From a bacterium (GTDB lineage: Bacteria > NPL-UPA2 > JAGMAN01): 15,179 nucleotides of DNA. Positions 7,573-15,179 of the stretch are shown one piece after another. The stretch lies in contig JAGMAN010000083.1 in the NCBI GenBank assembly GCA_023130215.1, positions 1-15,179 on the forward strand, given 5' to 3'. Positions within the stretch are counted from its first letter, which is position 1. Every line of letters starts with the position of its first letter. The notes beneath the pieces were generated by a model. The model had not been told where the DNA came from and ran no database searches. It worked only from the letters and a program-made list of their open reading frames with translations. The translations under genes were made by a program, and so were the position numbers.

Positions 7573-8502
7573 ATGAAGAGAGTATCCCATAAATTGTCAT
7601 TGAACAGCCGTGGACTGCGTTGCCGGCTGATGTCAGCCTTTGCCCTGATGGCCGTTGTCCCCCTTCTCATCTTTGCCCAGCACATCTTCCCTTCCTTAGG
7701 GCCTACCAAGGAACCCAGTTTGTTGCTCTTAGCAGCCATTATCTTCTCTTTGCTCGGTCTTTCTCTCATGGTCAACATCCTTAAGCCAATCTCCAGATTA
7801 GCCTCTGGAGCCAGGGCTCTGGCCAATGGCACCCTCATCCCAAAATTTGAACTGAGAAGGGAGGATGAGATTGGTCAGTTGGGAGATGCTCTTAACAGCA
7901 TGCGGGAAGGGCTCCGCCAGAGCGTTAACGACCTGAAGGCTCACGAGGAGAAGACAGAAAAGTTTAATCGTGAGATAAGAGAACTCCTGGAGAGGATTGA
8001 AGCCCTCTCCATCACTGATGATCTCACCGGACTTTACAACAAGAAGTATCTTGAGGGTAGATTGGGTGAGGAGATACAGAGGGCGATTATGTATCAGCGA
8101 CCCTGCTCTTTGGCCATCTTCGCCATTGATCACTTTAAAAGCTATAATGATTCCTATGGGGAGAGGGCCGGCGATTTGGTTTTGCAGGAAGTTGCTGGTC
8201 TCATCCGAGCTCATAGCACCGATATAGATAAGGTGGCTCGTTCGGGAGGGGGGCGCTTTGGAGTAATTTTGCCGGAGAAAAATAAGAAGGAAGCCCTTCT
8301 CTTTGCTGAGGAGGTGAAAAGAGTGGTGGAGAGGCACCGCTTTCCCCACGAGAGGAGTCAACCCGGTGGCAGACTGACCATAAGTGCAGGTGTGGCCGCT
8401 AATCCCATTGACGGAGCGAAGGCCCAGGAGCTGCTGGAAAAAGCTGTCTCGGCTGGGAACCGGGCTAAGGAGGAGGGAGGAAATAGAGTATATGGGTACT
8501 AA
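7573..8502 (+). CDS. Membrane protein with HAMP-like region and degenerate GGDEF domain
   Basis: A 309-residue inner-membrane signalling protein. Two hydrophobic helices (about 19-37 and 49-70) flank a very short outside loop. A HAMP-like segment follows (KPISRLASGARAL to DEIGQLGDALNSM), then a coiled coil (about 115-145) and a GGDEF-type domain (about 146-309) introduced by DDLTGLYNKKYLE. The metal-binding IDHFKSYND (185-193) is kept, but the signature reads GGGRF (225-229) instead of GGDEF/GGEEF. The catalytic acidic pair is replaced by Gly and Arg, and the inhibitory-site RxxD is TDID here. Synthesis of c-di-GMP is therefore unlikely; a GTP- or protein-binding regulatory role is the inference. 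It is the first gene behind a perfect-consensus promoter and overlaps pilT by 11 bp, pointing to a role in pilus control. The start has an ideal AGGAGG. Confidence 0.88.
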   Translation: MKRVSHKLSLNSRGLRCRLMSAFALMAVVPLLIFAQHIFPSLGPTKEPSLLLLAAIIFSLLGLSLMVNILKPISRLASGARALANGTLIPKFELRREDEIGQLGDALNSMREGLRQSVNDLKAHEEKTEKFNREIRELLERIEALSITDDLTGLYNKKYLEGRLGEEIQRAIMYQRPCSLAIFAIDHFKSYNDSYGERAGDLVLQEVAGLIRAHSTDIDKVARSGGGRFGVILPEKNKKEALLFAEEVKRVVERHRFPHERSQPGGRLTISAGVAANPIDGAKAQELLEKAVSAGNRAKEEGGNRVYGY

Positions 8503-9562
8503 AATAGAAGAGCTTCTGCGATTGATGGTGGACAGGGGAGCATCGGACCTACATCTGACTGTAAGTAGCCCTCCTCAACTGCGCATAGATGAAAGATTGG
8601 TTGCCACCGAGTTTGACGTCCTTACCCCGCAGTCTTGTCAGGAACTTGTTTATAGCCTCCTTTCTGAAACCCAGAAGAGAAGATTTGAAAAGGAACTTGA
8701 GTTTGACATTTCTTTTGGCCTGGAAGATGTAGGTAGATTCCGAATGAATTTCTTTAAGCAGAGGGGATGGGTAGGAGCGGCCATACGGCTGATCCCTTTC
8801 CAGATCCCCGCTTTTGAAGAACTGGGTCTGCCCAAGGTGGCCGCTAAGCTGTCCTCTTTGCCCAAAGGCCTGGTGCTGGTAACCGGTCCCACCGGATGCG
8901 GTAAGTCAACTACGCTTGCTTCCATCATTGAAAGGATAAATGCCCAGCGTCCCTGTCATATAATTACGGTGGAGGACCCAATTGAGTATGTTCACCAGAA
9001 TAAGAAGTCCATAGTCAATCAGCGGGAGGTGGGCTCTGATACCCATTCCTTTGCCAATGCCCTGAAATATATCCTCCGTGAAGACCCGGATGTCATTTTA
9101 GTTGGAGAAATGCGGGACCTGGAGACAGTGGAGATGACCCTTCTGGCGGCTGAGACCGGACATTTAGTATTTGCGACGCTTCATACATCGGATGCTGTTC
9201 AAACGGCAAACCGGATCATTGATATGTTCCCGGCTCACCAGCAGAATCAGGTGAGGACACAACTTTCCTTTGTCATTCAGGCAGTCCTCAGCCAGCAGCT
9301 TATCCCTAAGCGGGAGGGGAAGGGAAGGGTGTTAGCGGCTGAGGTTATGATTGCCAGTCCAGCCATTCGAGCTTTAATCCGGGAGGAGAAAGCGCACCAG
9401 ATTTATTCAGTAATTCAGACTGGTAGTAGCCTGGGGATGCAGACCATGAATCAAGCTTTCTTTGAACTTTACCAGCGCAGACTAATAAGTTATGAGCAAG
9501 CTTTAGCCAGAACAACTGATCTGGATGATTTAGAAAGAATATTTAAACAAACCCGGCAATGA
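8492..9562 (+). CDS. pilT: Type IV pilus retraction ATPase PilT
   Basis: Cytoplasmic hexameric ATPase that powers pilus disassembly and twitching. The 356-residue length is typical for PilT. Motifs in order: GASDLHLTVSSPPQLRID at the N-terminus; Walker A GPTGCGKST (132-140); Asp box ITVEDPIEYVHQNKKSIVNQ; Walker B DVILVGEMRDLET (200-212); and His box TGHLVFATLHTSDAVQTANR. The retraction signature AIRALIREEKAHQI (about 291-304) corresponds to the PilT AIRNLIRE motif, followed by GSSLGMQTMNQ. The ATG at 8492 overlaps the GGDEF-like gene by 11 bp, with GGAGG ending 11 bases upstream. The frame is open further left to 8384, but those 36 residues lie inside the upstream gene and do not match the family. 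PilT preceding pilB and pilC is a common pilus gene order. Confidence 0.96.
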   Translation: MGTKIEELLRLMVDRGASDLHLTVSSPPQLRIDERLVATEFDVLTPQSCQELVYSLLSETQKRRFEKELEFDISFGLEDVGRFRMNFFKQRGWVGAAIRLIPFQIPAFEELGLPKVAAKLSSLPKGLVLVTGPTGCGKSTTLASIIERINAQRPCHIITVEDPIEYVHQNKKSIVNQREVGSDTHSFANALKYILREDPDVILVGEMRDLETVEMTLLAAETGHLVFATLHTSDAVQTANRIIDMFPAHQQNQVRTQLSFVIQAVLSQQLIPKREGKGRVLAAEVMIASPAIRALIREEKAHQIYSVIQTGSSLGMQTMNQAFFELYQRRLISYEQALARTTDLDDLERIFKQTRQ

Positions 9563-11271
9563 TTAAGTCGCTAAAGAAGCAACTGAAAGATATATTGATT
9601 GAAGGGAAGCTAACCACAGAGGAGGAACTTAATCAGGCTCTTCAGGTCCAGAAAGAAGAAGGGGGTCGGCTCAGCCAGATTCTCATTAGATTGGGCTATA
9701 TTGATGAAAAAGAGTTAGCTGCCTGCCTGGGCAAGGAGCTCAACATCCCACCCATAAACCTGGAGAAGTTCCGAATTGACCCTGAGATAGTAAAGATCGT
9801 TCCCGAACAGGTAGCCCGCCATTATCAGCTCATAGTGCTTTCCCGAATAGGTCCGACCCTTACTGTAGCTATGGTTGATCCCCTCAACATCTTCGCCATG
9901 GATGACATAAAAGCCCTCACTAACTATAAAATAGAGCCTGTCATCGGCACTGAGAAAGATATCAATGAGGCTATAAACCAGTGCTACGGCAGTGCCACTG
10001 GTGGTTTAGAGGATATTCTCAAGGATATAGAAGAGAAGGAAGTGGAGGTAATCAAGGTCGGAGGCGATGAGATAGACACTGGCCAAATTTTAAAGGCAGT
10101 GGATGAGACCCCGGTAGTTAAGGCGGTAAATCTGATTTTAGTAGAAGCGGTGAAGGAAAAAGCCAGCGATATATTGATAGAACCATGGCAGGAAAGAATG
10201 CGAGTCCGCTATCGGGTGGATGGAATACTCCATGAGTTCACCTCTCCTCCCAAATCTATGCATCAAGCGATGGTTTCCCGGATAAAGATTATGTCGGACC
10301 TGGATATTGCTGAAAGGCGCCTCCCCCAGGATGGGCGGTTTAAGGTAGAGGTAGAAGGAAGGGAAGTGGATTTCCGCATCTCTGTCCTACCATCCAGTTT
10401 TGGAGAGAAGGTAGCTATCCGGGTTTTAGATAAGAGCGCTATCAAGCTAAATGTAGAGGAGTTGGGATTTGAACTAAAATCGCTTAAGGACTTAAAAGAG
10501 TGTGCCAGGCAACCGCACGGCATGATTCTTGTCTGTGGACCTACCGGCTGTGGAAAAACGACCACTCTTTATTCCGTTCTCAAGTTCGTTGACCAGCCAG
10601 GACTGAATTTAGTTACCGTAGAGGACCCGATTGAGTACGAACTTAAAGGAATAAATCAGGTAACAATTAAGTCAGATATTGGATTAACATTCTCCAGTGC
10701 TCTCAGGTCCATCCTGCGCCAGGACCCGGATGTGATTATGGTAGGGGAGATGAGAGACTACGAGACAGTGGATGTGGCTGTAAAAGCGGCTCTCACAGGG
10801 CATCTTGTCCTTTCCAGCCTTCACACCACTACTGCCCCGGGAGCCATTGTGCGTTTGATTAACATGGGGATTGAGCCATTTCTTATTTCCTCTTCTATCC
10901 TTTTGGTAGCGGCCCAGAGATTGGTGCGTAAAATCTGCCCTAAGTGCAAAGAATCTTATCAGGCTTCTTCCCAGGTTTTAGAGCAGTTGAAACTAAAAGC
11001 CGAAGAGTTAACCCTCTATAGAGGAAAGGGATGTCCGCAGTGTAGCCAGACCGGCTACAGCGGCCGGGTTGGCATTATTGAGACCCTGGTCCTTGGGCCG
11101 GAGTTAAGGGAGATGGTTATGAGCGAAGCCTCCTCAGGGAAAATTAAGGCAGAGGCCAGAAGATTGGGGATGAGAACATTGAGGGAAAATGGAGTGGAGA
11201 AAGTCCTGGCTGGAGTGACCACGGTGGAGGAAGTGCTAAGAGTAACGGGAGAGGATGAGGAGCATGGTTAA
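9559..11271 (+). CDS. pilB: PilB/GspE-type assembly ATPase, first tandem paralogue (divergent)
   Basis: Hexameric ATPase of the type IV pilus/type II secretion family; 570 residues. The N-terminal domain has two 24-residue repeats (8-31 and 37-60) resembling the MshEN motif that binds c-di-GMP in MshE. The ATPase core has Walker A GPTGCGKTT (327-335), Asp box VTVEDPIEYELKG, Walker B DVIMVGEMRDYET (391-403) and a zinc-binding tetracysteine C460, C463, C492, C495. Two normally conserved spots differ: the SDIHIEP motif reads SDILIEP (His to Leu, residue 206) and the His box reads LHTTTAPGAI where LHTND is usual. The Walker A and B residues needed for ATP hydrolysis are intact. It begins with a 4-bp ATGA overlap with pilT and no clear Shine-Dalgarno, so translation is probably coupled. 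A very similar gene follows directly. Confidence 0.93.
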   Translation: MIKSLKKQLKDILIEGKLTTEEELNQALQVQKEEGGRLSQILIRLGYIDEKELAACLGKELNIPPINLEKFRIDPEIVKIVPEQVARHYQLIVLSRIGPTLTVAMVDPLNIFAMDDIKALTNYKIEPVIGTEKDINEAINQCYGSATGGLEDILKDIEEKEVEVIKVGGDEIDTGQILKAVDETPVVKAVNLILVEAVKEKASDILIEPWQERMRVRYRVDGILHEFTSPPKSMHQAMVSRIKIMSDLDIAERRLPQDGRFKVEVEGREVDFRISVLPSSFGEKVAIRVLDKSAIKLNVEELGFELKSLKDLKECARQPHGMILVCGPTGCGKTTTLYSVLKFVDQPGLNLVTVEDPIEYELKGINQVTIKSDIGLTFSSALRSILRQDPDVIMVGEMRDYETVDVAVKAALTGHLVLSSLHTTTAPGAIVRLINMGIEPFLISSSILLVAAQRLVRKICPKCKESYQASSQVLEQLKLKAEELTLYRGKGCPQCSQTGYSGRVGIIETLVLGPELREMVMSEASSGKIKAEARRLGMRTLRENGVEKVLAGVTTVEEVLRVTGEDEEHG

Positions 11272-12940
11272 GTCTCTGAGGAAACGCCTAAATGAGATCC
11301 TCATTGAAGGGGGCCTGATAACTGAGGCACAGCTTGAGCAAGCTCTAAAGATTCAGAGAAAGAAGGGGGGACGGTTAGGTCAGGTCCTGGCAGAAGAAGG
11401 CTATGTTAACGAAACCGATTTGGTGGCCTGTCTTGCTGCCGAACTGAGCATTCCTCCAATAAACCTGAGTAAGTATCAAATAGATGAGGAGATTGTTAAT
11501 CTCATTCCAGAACATGTGGCCCGGCACTATCAACTCCTCCCTCTATCTAAAATAGGCAAGACCCTCACTGTAGCTATGGCTGACCCCCTTAATGTTTTTG
11601 CTATGGACGATATCAAGATTCTCACTGGATACCGGATCGAGCCGATTATCTGCACAGAGAAAGATATAAAGGAGGCCATAGACCGATATTATGGCTCCAG
11701 GGAGAAGATGGGGGACATTTTGAAGGAAATTGGAGCTGAGGCTGTCCCTCCTTCAGGCGAAGAAGAGATGGACTCGCATGAACTTCTCAAAGAGACGGAA
11801 GAAGCCCCCGTAGTCAAGATAGTCAACTTCATTCTCTTGGAAGCTATGGGACAAAGGGCGAGCGATATCCACATTGAGCCACAGCGGGAATGCTTGAAGG
11901 TTCGTTATCGGGTAGATGGCCTGCTTCAGGAAATGGTATCTCCACCAAAGAAGATAGAAAAGGCAATACTGGCACGGCTCAAGATCATGTCTGGATTGGA
12001 TATTGCCGAAAAGCGAGTGCCCCAGGATGGACGCTTCAGAGCGAAGTTACGGGGGAAGGAAATAGACTATAGAGTCTCTTCTCTACCAATTTCTTTCGGG
12101 GAGAAGATAGTCCTTCGGGCATTAGACAAGAGCAGTCTGACAGTAGGACTTGATAAGTTAGGATTTGAAGAGGAACCATTGAGGGACTTTGAGCGGTGTA
12201 TAAATAAACCTTATGGCATGATCCTGGTCACCGGCCCCACCGGGAGCGGAAAATCAACCACCCTCTATTCAGTTCTCAGCCGGCTAAATACCTCAGAAAG
12301 AAATATCATTACCGTCGAGGACCCGGTTGAGTATCAGGTGGAAGGAATAACTCAAATTCAGGCCAATCCGGATATCGGATTAACTTTTGCCGCTGGACTG
12401 CGTTCACTGCTGAGGCAGAGTCCGGACATCATCATGATTGGAGAGATAAGGGATAGAGAAACTGCGGACATCGCTGTTAAGGCAGCTCTCACCGGGCAGT
12501 TGGTTCTGAGCACTCTCCATACTAATGACGCGGCTGGAGCAATAACCCGCCTGATTGACATGGGAGTGGAGCCTTTTCTTGTTTCCTCTTCCCTTATTGG
12601 GGCAGCGGCCCAGAGATTGGTCAGAAAGATCTGCCCCGAATGCAAGGAGCCATATAAACTACCTCCAGCCATTCAGGAGAAAATGAAGTTGGAAAATCCC
12701 ACCGTCTATCGGGGCAAAGGTTGTTCAAAATGTCGGCAGACAGGTTACCATGGTAGAGTGGCAGTCTTAGAGGTTTTAGTGATTAACGAAGAGATAAGGG
12801 ATATGATTGTGAAGAGAGCCTCATCAGATGAGATCAGGGAAAAGGGGCGCCGAGCAGGGATGAAGTTATTAAGGGACAGCGGAATGGAGAAGATGAAAGC
12901 AGGAATAACCTCTCTGGAAGAAGTACTGCGAGTGACTTAA
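11264..12940 (+). CDS. pilB: PilB/GspE-type assembly ATPase, second tandem paralogue (canonical)
   Basis: A 558-residue assembly ATPase, by eye more than half identical to the preceding protein along its whole length. The N-terminal MshEN-like repeats are at 8-31 and 37-60; here the key Arg-Leu pairs (RLN, RLGQ) are closer to the c-di-GMP-binding consensus. The core is canonical: ASDIHIEP (about 199-206), Walker A GPTGSGKST (324-332), Asp box ITVEDPVEYQVEG, Walker B DIIMIGEIRDRET, LHTNDAAGAITRL, and zinc cysteines C457, C460, C487, C490. The Gln in TGQLVLSTLHT replaces the usual His. The start at 11264 gives MVKSLRKRL, which aligns with MIKSLKKQL of the first paralogue; an ATG at 11255 would add three residues. 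It overlaps the first gene by 8 bp. Its canonical motifs make it the better candidate for the main extension motor. Confidence 0.94.
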   Translation: MVKSLRKRLNEILIEGGLITEAQLEQALKIQRKKGGRLGQVLAEEGYVNETDLVACLAAELSIPPINLSKYQIDEEIVNLIPEHVARHYQLLPLSKIGKTLTVAMADPLNVFAMDDIKILTGYRIEPIICTEKDIKEAIDRYYGSREKMGDILKEIGAEAVPPSGEEEMDSHELLKETEEAPVVKIVNFILLEAMGQRASDIHIEPQRECLKVRYRVDGLLQEMVSPPKKIEKAILARLKIMSGLDIAEKRVPQDGRFRAKLRGKEIDYRVSSLPISFGEKIVLRALDKSSLTVGLDKLGFEEEPLRDFERCINKPYGMILVTGPTGSGKSTTLYSVLSRLNTSERNIITVEDPVEYQVEGITQIQANPDIGLTFAAGLRSLLRQSPDIIMIGEIRDRETADIAVKAALTGQLVLSTLHTNDAAGAITRLIDMGVEPFLVSSSLIGAAAQRLVRKICPECKEPYKLPPAIQEKMKLENPTVYRGKGCSKCRQTGYHGRVAVLEVLVINEEIRDMIVKRASSDEIREKGRRAGMKLLRDSGMEKMKAGITSLEEVLRVT

Positions 12941-12941
12941 G

Positions 12942-14150
12942 ATGCCGCTTTATAGATACAAGGCTAAGGATTCAGATGGTCGCACTCTCTCGGGGACCTT
13001 AGAGGCGGAGAGCGAAAAGAGCCTGGTCAATCTTCTCAGGGAGAAGGGGCTGGTAATCGTTGGTCTGACTGAGGAGAAGCGTCGGACTAAGCTCGGGAAG
13101 GGGAGAAAAGGAAAGGTAAAAGCAGATGACCTGGTTATCTTCTCTCGACAGTTAGCAACGATGGTCAACGCCGGTCTGCCCCTTATGCAAAGTCTAAATG
13201 TGCTCAACGAGCAGATGGAAAGCAAGGCTTTTAAGGCCATAGGCAAAGAGATCGAGCAGGAGGTTGAGGGAGGAGCCAATTTCTCGGATGCTTTGGCTAA
13301 ACACCCACAGGTATTCTCCCGCCTCTTCGTAAATCTGGTCCGAGCAGGGGAAGCAAGCGGGATGCTTGACGAGATCCTGGATCGAGTGGCCAGCTATTTG
13401 GAGGCATCTACTGCCTTAAGGAGAAAGGTGAAGTCCGCCCTTATCTATCCAGCTATCATCACGGTGGTGGCCATTCTGGTAGTGTTCTTTATGGTAGTAG
13501 TAGTAGTCCCATCTTTTGAGGCAATCTTTTCTGATTTCGGCGGCCAGTTGCCCCTGCCCACCCAGATTTTGATTAACATCAGTAAGTTGGCACGAAAGTA
13601 CATTGTATTTATTTTGGCAGGAATGGGAGTAGCTATCTACTTCTTTCGTCGCTACCTGCGAACAGATGCTGGCCGGCTGAAGTGGGATAGACTTACTCTC
13701 AACCTACCTGTATTTGGGTCTCTCTTACGGAAAGTAGCCATTTCGAAATTTTCCCGAACTTTATCTACCTTGCTTAAGAGTGGGGTGCCTATCTTAGGGT
13801 CTTTAGAGATTGTTGGTAAAACAGCTGATAACAAGGTGGTGGAGCAAGCGCTGAATAGTGTGCGCTCAAGCATCAGGGAAGGAGAGAGTATCGCCGGGCC
13901 ATTGGGTGAGAGTGGTGTATTTCCACCTATGGTGGTGCGGATGATTTCGGTGGGGGAACAGACTGGAGCCTTAGAAGAGATGCTCGGGAAAATATCCGAT
14001 TTCTATGATGAGCAGGTGAGTGCGGCTGTCTCAGGCCTAACCTCTATGATCGAGCCCTTGATCATCGTCTTCCTGGGATTGGTCATTGGAGGCATCGTTT
14101 TAGCTATATTCCTTCCCATATTTAAGATGGGCGAGCTCATTCAGATGTAG
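12942..14150 (+). CDS. pilC: Type IV pilus inner-membrane platform protein PilC
   Basis: Polytopic GspF/PilC-family protein that sits in the inner membrane above the motor ATPases and hands pilin subunits to the growing fibre. At 402 residues it is the usual length. The N-terminus MPLYRYKAKDSDGRTLSGTL is typical. Two repeated GspF domains follow, each starting with a helix such as FSRQLATMVNAGLPLMQSL (67-85) and FSRTLSTLLKSGVPILGSLE (270-289). Membrane helices fall at about 168-190, 219-236 and 371-393. Only 1 bp separates it from the preceding ATPase stop codon and there is no obvious Shine-Dalgarno, suggesting translational coupling. Pilin, prepilin peptidase and PilMNOPQ genes are not in the window, so they must lie elsewhere or to the right. 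Confidence 0.95.
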   Translation: MPLYRYKAKDSDGRTLSGTLEAESEKSLVNLLREKGLVIVGLTEEKRRTKLGKGRKGKVKADDLVIFSRQLATMVNAGLPLMQSLNVLNEQMESKAFKAIGKEIEQEVEGGANFSDALAKHPQVFSRLFVNLVRAGEASGMLDEILDRVASYLEASTALRRKVKSALIYPAIITVVAILVVFFMVVVVVPSFEAIFSDFGGQLPLPTQILINISKLARKYIVFILAGMGVAIYFFRRYLRTDAGRLKWDRLTLNLPVFGSLLRKVAISKFSRTLSTLLKSGVPILGSLEIVGKTADNKVVEQALNSVRSSIREGESIAGPLGESGVFPPMVVRMISVGEQTGALEEMLGKISDFYDEQVSAAVSGLTSMIEPLIIVFLGLVIGGIVLAIFLPIFKMGELIQM

Positions 14151-14153
14151 AGG

Positions 14154-15179
14154 ATGCCTGTGAAGGATAAAGGGGTCGACAAACTATTTAAGGAGTTGAG
14201 GTGGCTTATAATCATAAGATTAGTCGTCCTGATAGTGATGCTGACCGTGGAGGCTATGGTCTGGCAAATGGCCAGAAGCCCATTCTATGTCCTGATTGCC
14301 ATTACTATCATCTTGACTATATTCTACCACCTCTGGCTGGAGCGAAGAAGATCTTTGAAGTTATTAGCTTACCTCCAGATCTTCCTTGATGTAGGGATAG
14401 TAACTGGCCTGGTCCATTATACTAATGCAGTAGAGAGCGTATACATTTTCCTGTATCCTCTAACCGTTATTTCAGCTGGCATCTTCATTGCTCCAGGAGC
14501 AAGTATAGCAGCTGCCTCCCTATGCGCCCTCTTCTACAGTGTCCTCCTGGGAGTCGAGTTCTACCAGGGGCCGAAGGAGAACGGCAGTTACCTCTTATAC
14601 CTGGCAAGCGTCCGACTGATTGTCTTTTATCTTGTGGCCCTCTTGAGCGGTTATTTAGCTGAGAGATTGGCCGGGACCGGAAGAGAGTTAACCAGGCTTC
14701 GCACTTTTACTGATGATATTTTGGAGAATGTGACCAGCGGAATAGTAGTTGTTGATCGGGAAGGTCACATCATTCAGGTCAATAGAGCGGTGGGGAGAAT
14801 AGTTGGTCAGAGCGGGGAGAAGCTCAGGGGTTCACTCTTATCGGAGGCGATGGGGGAGAAAGGCGCTGAATTTGAGTTTGCTAACATCGTGAAGATAAGT
14901 GGCGATGGACTGGCTCACGAGACCAGGATAAAGGGAGAGGGAGGAAGGGAAATCCCCATCGGTTTTACTGCCTCCTTATTAAAAGATGAGTGGGGAAAAA
15001 TAAGCGGAGCCATCATTATCTTTAATGACCTCACCAAGATAAAGTATATGGAGGAAGAGATCAGACAGCGAGATAGATTAGCGGCAGTGGGGGAGATAGC
15101 CTCTGGAATGGCTCAGGAAATAGGGCATCCCCTGCAGTCACTCACCAACTCAGTGAAGGTTTTACACGAAGGAGTGCTG
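14154..15179 (+). CDS. pilS: PilS-like sensor histidine kinase, 3' end cut by window; altered H-box
   Basis: The window ends inside this gene; 342 residues are visible. Six hydrophobic helices occupy about residues 17-170, as in PilS, followed by a PAS domain (about 184-295: ENVTSGIVVVDREGHIIQVN ... GAIIIFNDLT) and the start of the dimerisation domain (LAAVGEIASGMAQEIGHPLQ). PilS kinases commonly control pilin transcription through PilR. The phospho-acceptor position of the usual HE(I/L)xNPL box is Gln321 (codon CAG at 15114-15116). A histidine appears four residues later (His325) where Asn is usual. Phosphorylation at the normal site is therefore not possible unless this is a sequence error. 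The start lies 3 bp after pilC; a GTG at 14160 has a better-spaced AGAGG and is an alternative. The catalytic ATPase domain is beyond the edge, so kinase integrity cannot be judged. Confidence 0.85.
   Translation, partial: MPVKDKGVDKLFKELRWLIIIRLVVLIVMLTVEAMVWQMARSPFYVLIAITIILTIFYHLWLERRRSLKLLAYLQIFLDVGIVTGLVHYTNAVESVYIFLYPLTVISAGIFIAPGASIAAASLCALFYSVLLGVEFYQGPKENGSYLLYLASVRLIVFYLVALLSGYLAERLAGTGRELTRLRTFTDDILENVTSGIVVVDREGHIIQVNRAVGRIVGQSGEKLRGSLLSEAMGEKGAEFEFANIVKISGDGLAHETRIKGEGGREIPIGFTASLLKDEWGKISGAIIIFNDLTKIKYMEEEIRQRDRLAAVGEIASGMAQEIGHPLQSLTNSVKVLHEGVL

Follow-up and report, generated by a model that had tools for sequence, protein, structure and literature searches.

A predicted PilS–PilR fusion without HATPase and receiver domains, encoded between pilC and a pilin gene with a sigma-54 promoter

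The last gene of the window, the 15,179-nucleotide stretch of bacterial DNA analyzed here, is by its domain content a PilS–PilR fusion that has lost the HATPase and receiver domains, and it is not a histidine kinase. We consider it likely that the fused protein is a membrane-bound one-component sigma-54 activator of pilin that arose from a collapsed PilS–PilR pair, and the neighboring pilin gene is probably switched on without phosphate transfer. The architecture, the motor motifs, the single PilS sensor, RpoN, and the promoter in both species examined are established at the level of sequence. Features of the window are listed in Table 1.

Table 1. Pilus-related genes of the window and domains of the fused regulator
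Feature	Position	Strand	Basis
Fused PilS–PilR-type regulator, 5′ part, 342 codons	14154..15179	+	Open frame; continues at C120:1-1098
Six-transmembrane PilS-type sensor	14190..14672	+	Pfam PF25323 6TM_PilS, residues 13-173
PAS domain	14712..15029	+	Pfam PF00989, residues 187-292, E 2.9e-10
DHp helix 1 of the HisKA hairpin	15051..15179	+	20-kinase DHp alignment; HisKA in homologue; AlphaFold2 hairpin in homologue
pilC, upstream neighbor in the pilus operon	12942..14150	+	NCBIfam PilC/GspF models, Pfam T2SSF
pilB-type assembly ATPase, downstream copy of a tandem pair	11255..12940	+	Pfam T2SSE and MshEN
pilB-type assembly ATPase, upstream copy of a tandem pair	9559..11271	+	Pfam T2SSE and MshEN
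pilT-type retraction ATPase, actual start probably internal to this frame	8384..9562	+	NCBIfam TIGR01420, above cut-off

The window spans contig C119 in full, and this contig stops inside the fused gene. Another contig of the same genome, C120, opens in frame with KEQGQREPLTEAILEEVAKLNSIISRFLDRTRP, which corresponds to DHp helix 2 (beginning at C120:1), and then runs through AAA+ and HTH domains with 84% identity to an intact homologue. This homologue, a protein of 709 amino acids, is encoded on a single contig (JAUWHM010000052.1) of a genome from the same genus. Because C119 matches the homologue up to residue 336 and C120 matches it from about residue 337, in frame, we infer from homology that the two contigs join. 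The window protein is 64 to 84% identical to the homologue, depending on the part compared, and the fusion proteins of the two species are 74% identical.

In the homologue, the domains follow one another in the order 6TM_PilS, PAS, HisKA, Sigma54_activat, AAA+ lid, and Fis-type HTH (PF02954, HTH_8, at the C terminus). The 6TM_PilS domain (PF25323) scores above its cut-off of 27 bits in both proteins, the window gene reaching 44.7 bits. The HisKA match of the homologue is likewise above the cut-off and covers profile positions 3 to 65 of 66, meaning that the DHp is complete, and Sigma54_activat starts 11 residues past it. Sigma54_activat (PF00158) is found in both proteins (E 4e-70 and 6e-71), and the Walker A motif GESGTGKE and the GAFTGA motif are intact in the fused proteins. 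The first-pass annotation had called the gene a PilS-like kinase and looked to the downstream sequence for the boxes of its ATPase domain. In the sequence recovered from both genomes, HATPase_c is absent after the DHp and the AAA+ domain comes directly instead; there is no space for an ATPase domain between the DHp helices, and none occurs after them. No match to a receiver domain was found in the window protein or the homologue. An AlphaFold2 model of the DHp-to-HTH part of the homologue (mean pLDDT of 83) contains a two-helix hairpin of moderate confidence, a short linker of low confidence, and confident AAA+ and HTH domains.

The genomic surroundings are those of a pilus operon. On C120, the fused gene ends at position 1098 and is followed by several pilin-like ORFs and pilM, with the first pilin ORF at 1316 to 1699. 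A perfect −24/−12 sigma-54 promoter, TGGCACAAAACTTGCA, lies at C120:1241-1256, 60 bp before this pilin ORF, where the chance expectation is 0.00 per shuffle. The relative has a perfect sigma-54 promoter, TGGCACAGAATTTGCA, at the corresponding place, and a relaxed promoter pattern has just three to five matches per genome within the genus. A scan of the window itself returned only imperfect sites in a near-chance number; the site at 14477 fits the relaxed pattern but sits inside the fused gene. Two more perfect matches to the sigma-54 promoter are present elsewhere in the genome, at C43:438-453 and C73:7015-7030. RpoN is encoded on C23. A second, weaker match to Sigma54_DBD (C83:788-1234, 49.7 bits) perhaps represents an RpoN-like protein. 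The genome carries one 6TM_PilS domain in all, which is that of the fused gene.

Both species conserve an 18-bp element, TTTTTACATCYGCAAAAA, shortly past the stop codon of the fused gene. In the window genome it occupies C120:1107-1124, which places it about 117 bp before the promoter. The element forms a conserved near-palindrome, TTTTTACATCTGCAAAAA. It is a plausible candidate for an activator-binding site, as a spacing of about 117 bp is usual for an activator. In its mature form, the first pilin carries Glu5 and Pro22, but because these residues are common in type IV pilins, they weakly support a pilin–sensor contact in this system. The same two residues are reported to be important for the contact between PilA and PilS (PMC6528607).

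We propose that the six-transmembrane sensor would respond, within the membrane, to the amount of pilin or to some other signal. PilS senses the level of pilin (PMC6058289, PMC6528607), and by analogy pilin may be the signal of the fused protein as well. A conformational change would then travel through PAS and the coiled coil of the DHp directly to the AAA+ domain, which would form its ring without leaving its membrane tether and would open the sigma-54 promoter in front of the neighboring pilin gene. In this scheme, the DHp would act as a dimerization and signal-relay element, which would make its histidine dispensable; with the HATPase and receiver domains both missing, loss of the histidine need not matter. 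We slightly favor, over the other readings, a working collapse free of phosphorylation, wherein the DHp bundle relays the signal mechanically to the sigma-54 AAA+ domain and the histidine is free to drift.

The fused gene is kept by selection, as judged from a pairwise dN/dS of about 0.27 for the whole gene and 0.13 for the AAA+ domain, both estimated by a simple method from one pair of genomes, with dS saturated in the transmembrane part. The two DHp helices gave values of 0.33 and 0.43. Constraint on the DHp appears looser than that on the motor, which would be expected of a structural relay that is no longer the substrate of an enzyme. Note that positions 13400 to 14650 of the window (the second half of pilC and the transmembrane sensor) appear more diverged between the two genomes than pilB before them and the PAS-AAA-HTH part after them: 4-fold sites differ by roughly 40 to 90% per block, and amino acids are 28 to 80% identical. 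This pattern looks like exchange by recombination.

The feature that had first drawn attention to this gene is its H-box. The frame of the window gene is open to the contig end, and its translation includes RLAAVGEIASGMAQEIGHPLQSLTNSVKVLHEGVL. In an alignment of the fused proteins with 20 kinase DHp domains, the phospho-acceptor position holds Gln 321, encoded by CAG at 15114 to 15116 in the assembled contig, and the +4 position, usually Asn, holds His 325, encoded by CAT at 15126 to 15128. The first-pass annotation had reported both residues correctly. It was also right to dismiss a frame error, because the frame is open and the Pfam 6TM_PilS and PAS domains upstream of the H-box score above the cut-off. 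The H-box of the relative reads AHEIGHPL, with the acceptor codon CAC (His) one base apart from CAG and with His again at +4, such that the two genes share Gly at +3 and His at +4. Because the relative has His, the Gln is specific to the window genome. Its occurrence goes beyond chance, since the acceptor is His in 63 kinases with both an H-box and a G2 box from the fetched loci; the +4 residue in this set is N in 61, T in 2, and S in 1. One further regex match in this survey, without His at the acceptor position, is not an H-box.

By comparison of the two genes, loss of the acceptor histidine is not a fixed feature of the fusion, given that the relative keeps it, and the Gln of the window genome may represent either drift at a relaxed site or a base artifact. 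A comparison with close relatives, which the first-pass annotation had named as a check that might overturn its view, cuts both ways: the one close relative does carry the acceptor His, but it is itself not a kinase. An erroneous base call or assembly, with a true codon of CAC or CAT, is a possibility that we regard as real but doubtful. The codon was read from the assembled contig alone, lies 63 bases from the contig end, and is a single base off that of the relative; nevertheless, the rest of the region aligns cleanly, and a relaxed site needs no error. Such an error is compatible with the fusion and would leave that finding unchanged.

Several other readings of the gene were weighed. It was conceivable that a true PilS kinase with Gln persists here, as a scaffold, as a kinase using the shifted His, or as a phosphatase acting on a separate PilR, and the H-box helix and PAS domain are indeed well kept. 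However, no ATPase domain follows in either genome, and HisKA phosphatase activity needs T or N at +4, for example N375 in CrdS (PMC3510030), a residue that is replaced in both genomes. The kinase and phosphatase readings therefore fail. The genome also has no second 6TM_PilS domain. PilR itself is part of the fusion and lacks its receiver, which leaves the phosphatase-only partner of PilR suggested by the first-pass annotation without its counterpart. Its proposal of the shifted His as acceptor is unsupported because there is neither a catalytic domain in cis to phosphorylate this residue nor a receiver. Its notion of a non-catalytic sensor survives in part: the protein is non-catalytic, since HATPase_c is absent and AAA+ and HTH domains come directly after the DHp, but the Gln is not the reason. 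A true PilS kinase is thus hardly credible, being ruled out by the downstream sequence unless the C119–C120 join is wrong. The ATPase domain of a different kinase could in principle phosphorylate the DHp in trans, on the acceptor His in the relative and on the shifted His here, and this phosphorylation could gate the AAA+ domain. The relative keeps the acceptor His and the adjacent Glu, and the window genome encodes five HATPase_c proteins. These all lie outside C119 and C120, however, and with Gln as the acceptor in one of the two species and no receiver domain to accept a phosphate, we judge this arrangement quite improbable.

A decaying remnant would be the product of deletion-fused genes that is nonfunctional or purely interfering, as in the gonococcal protein Rsp. 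Rsp of Neisseria gonorrhoeae is a PilS/PilR fusion and was the sole case found in the literature on such fusions; it is described as a remnant (Carrick et al. 2000, via passages of PMC10269533 and PMC6528607). As given in those passages, one paper assigns it pilin repression and another no apparent role, and pilE in the gonococcus uses RpoD. Both this precedent and the loss of the acceptor His in one genome would fit decay. Against it stand the open frames in two species whose proteins have diverged to 74% identity, the constraint on the gene and above all on its AAA+ domain, the intact Walker A and GAFTGA motifs, and a conserved perfect promoter before the pilin gene in a genome that has RpoN. 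Unlike Rsp as it is described in these sources, our only basis for comparison, the fused protein retains its AAA+ motor motifs together with RpoN and a sigma-54 promoter for pilin. We therefore regard decay as unlikely.

Separate genes, with pilS (including its ATPase domain) directly followed by pilR (including its receiver), are found in two genomes of the same phylum and for most PilS matches elsewhere. In a tree of 36 AAA+ domains, the fused ones group with PilS-linked PilR (support 89/84, which is moderate) and apart from the NtrC-like paralogues of their own phylum, which argues with moderate strength for descent of the fused AAA+ domain from PilR. A single in-frame deletion running from the pilS ATPase domain to the pilR receiver domain would produce such a gene. 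Among 386 genomes sampled, the fusion is carried by two, the window genome and its same-genus relative, and a 105-amino-acid query spanning the junction gave no further match in that sample. The query also gave none in 195 genomes of another phylum or in two small phyla (1 and 4 genomes), and a GTDB contig scan matched the relative alone. Across the roughly 580 genomes sampled, no other fusion scored above the threshold, in searches that for most genomes evaluated 12 to 24 candidates and applied strict E-values, so that diverged fusions could be missed.

The fused protein shares with the PilS–PilR systems of Pseudomonas aeruginosa, Myxococcus, and commensal Neisseria (Nps–Npa) the six-transmembrane sensor, the HisKA-type DHp, the AAA+ domain, and the Fis HTH, as well as a location near pilC and a pilin gene and a sigma-54 pilin promoter. 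In contrast to these systems, it is one polypeptide in which the HATPase and receiver domains are missing; the acceptor His is gone from one species, and neither species has kept the +4 Asn. One-component bacterial enhancer-binding proteins with PAS or GAF sensors (PMC4641369) similarly combine a sensor with a sigma-54 activator and have no phosphotransfer domains, but the fused protein differs in having a six-transmembrane membrane sensor and a complete DHp hairpin before the motor. It also resembles the transmembrane transcription regulators, including the "hybrid TTRs" with HisKA or a receiver, in being membrane bound and in having two-component domains; unlike the hybrids, as outlined in the relevant passages of PMC10269533, it keeps only the DHp and is a sigma-54 activator.

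The fused protein separates, in a natural protein, the two jobs of a DHp, namely that of phosphate carrier and that of mechanical relay. If our proposal is true, a sensor drives a sigma-54 AAA+ motor from the membrane without phosphotransfer, and the gene offers a direct case of a two-component system turned into a one-component system with its place in the operon and its target promoter kept. An H-box that is read alone, without the domain downstream of it, can cause such fusions to be mislabeled as degenerate kinases.

Two minor observations concern neighboring sequences. The tandem pilB-type genes of the window, both of which carry MshEN, overlap by 17 bases. Finally, the end of the contig from the relative (positions 1 to 190) looks chimeric, as the pilin frame past "GGFTL" turns un-pilin-like with 63 to 68% GC, and this leaves the fusion gene untouched.
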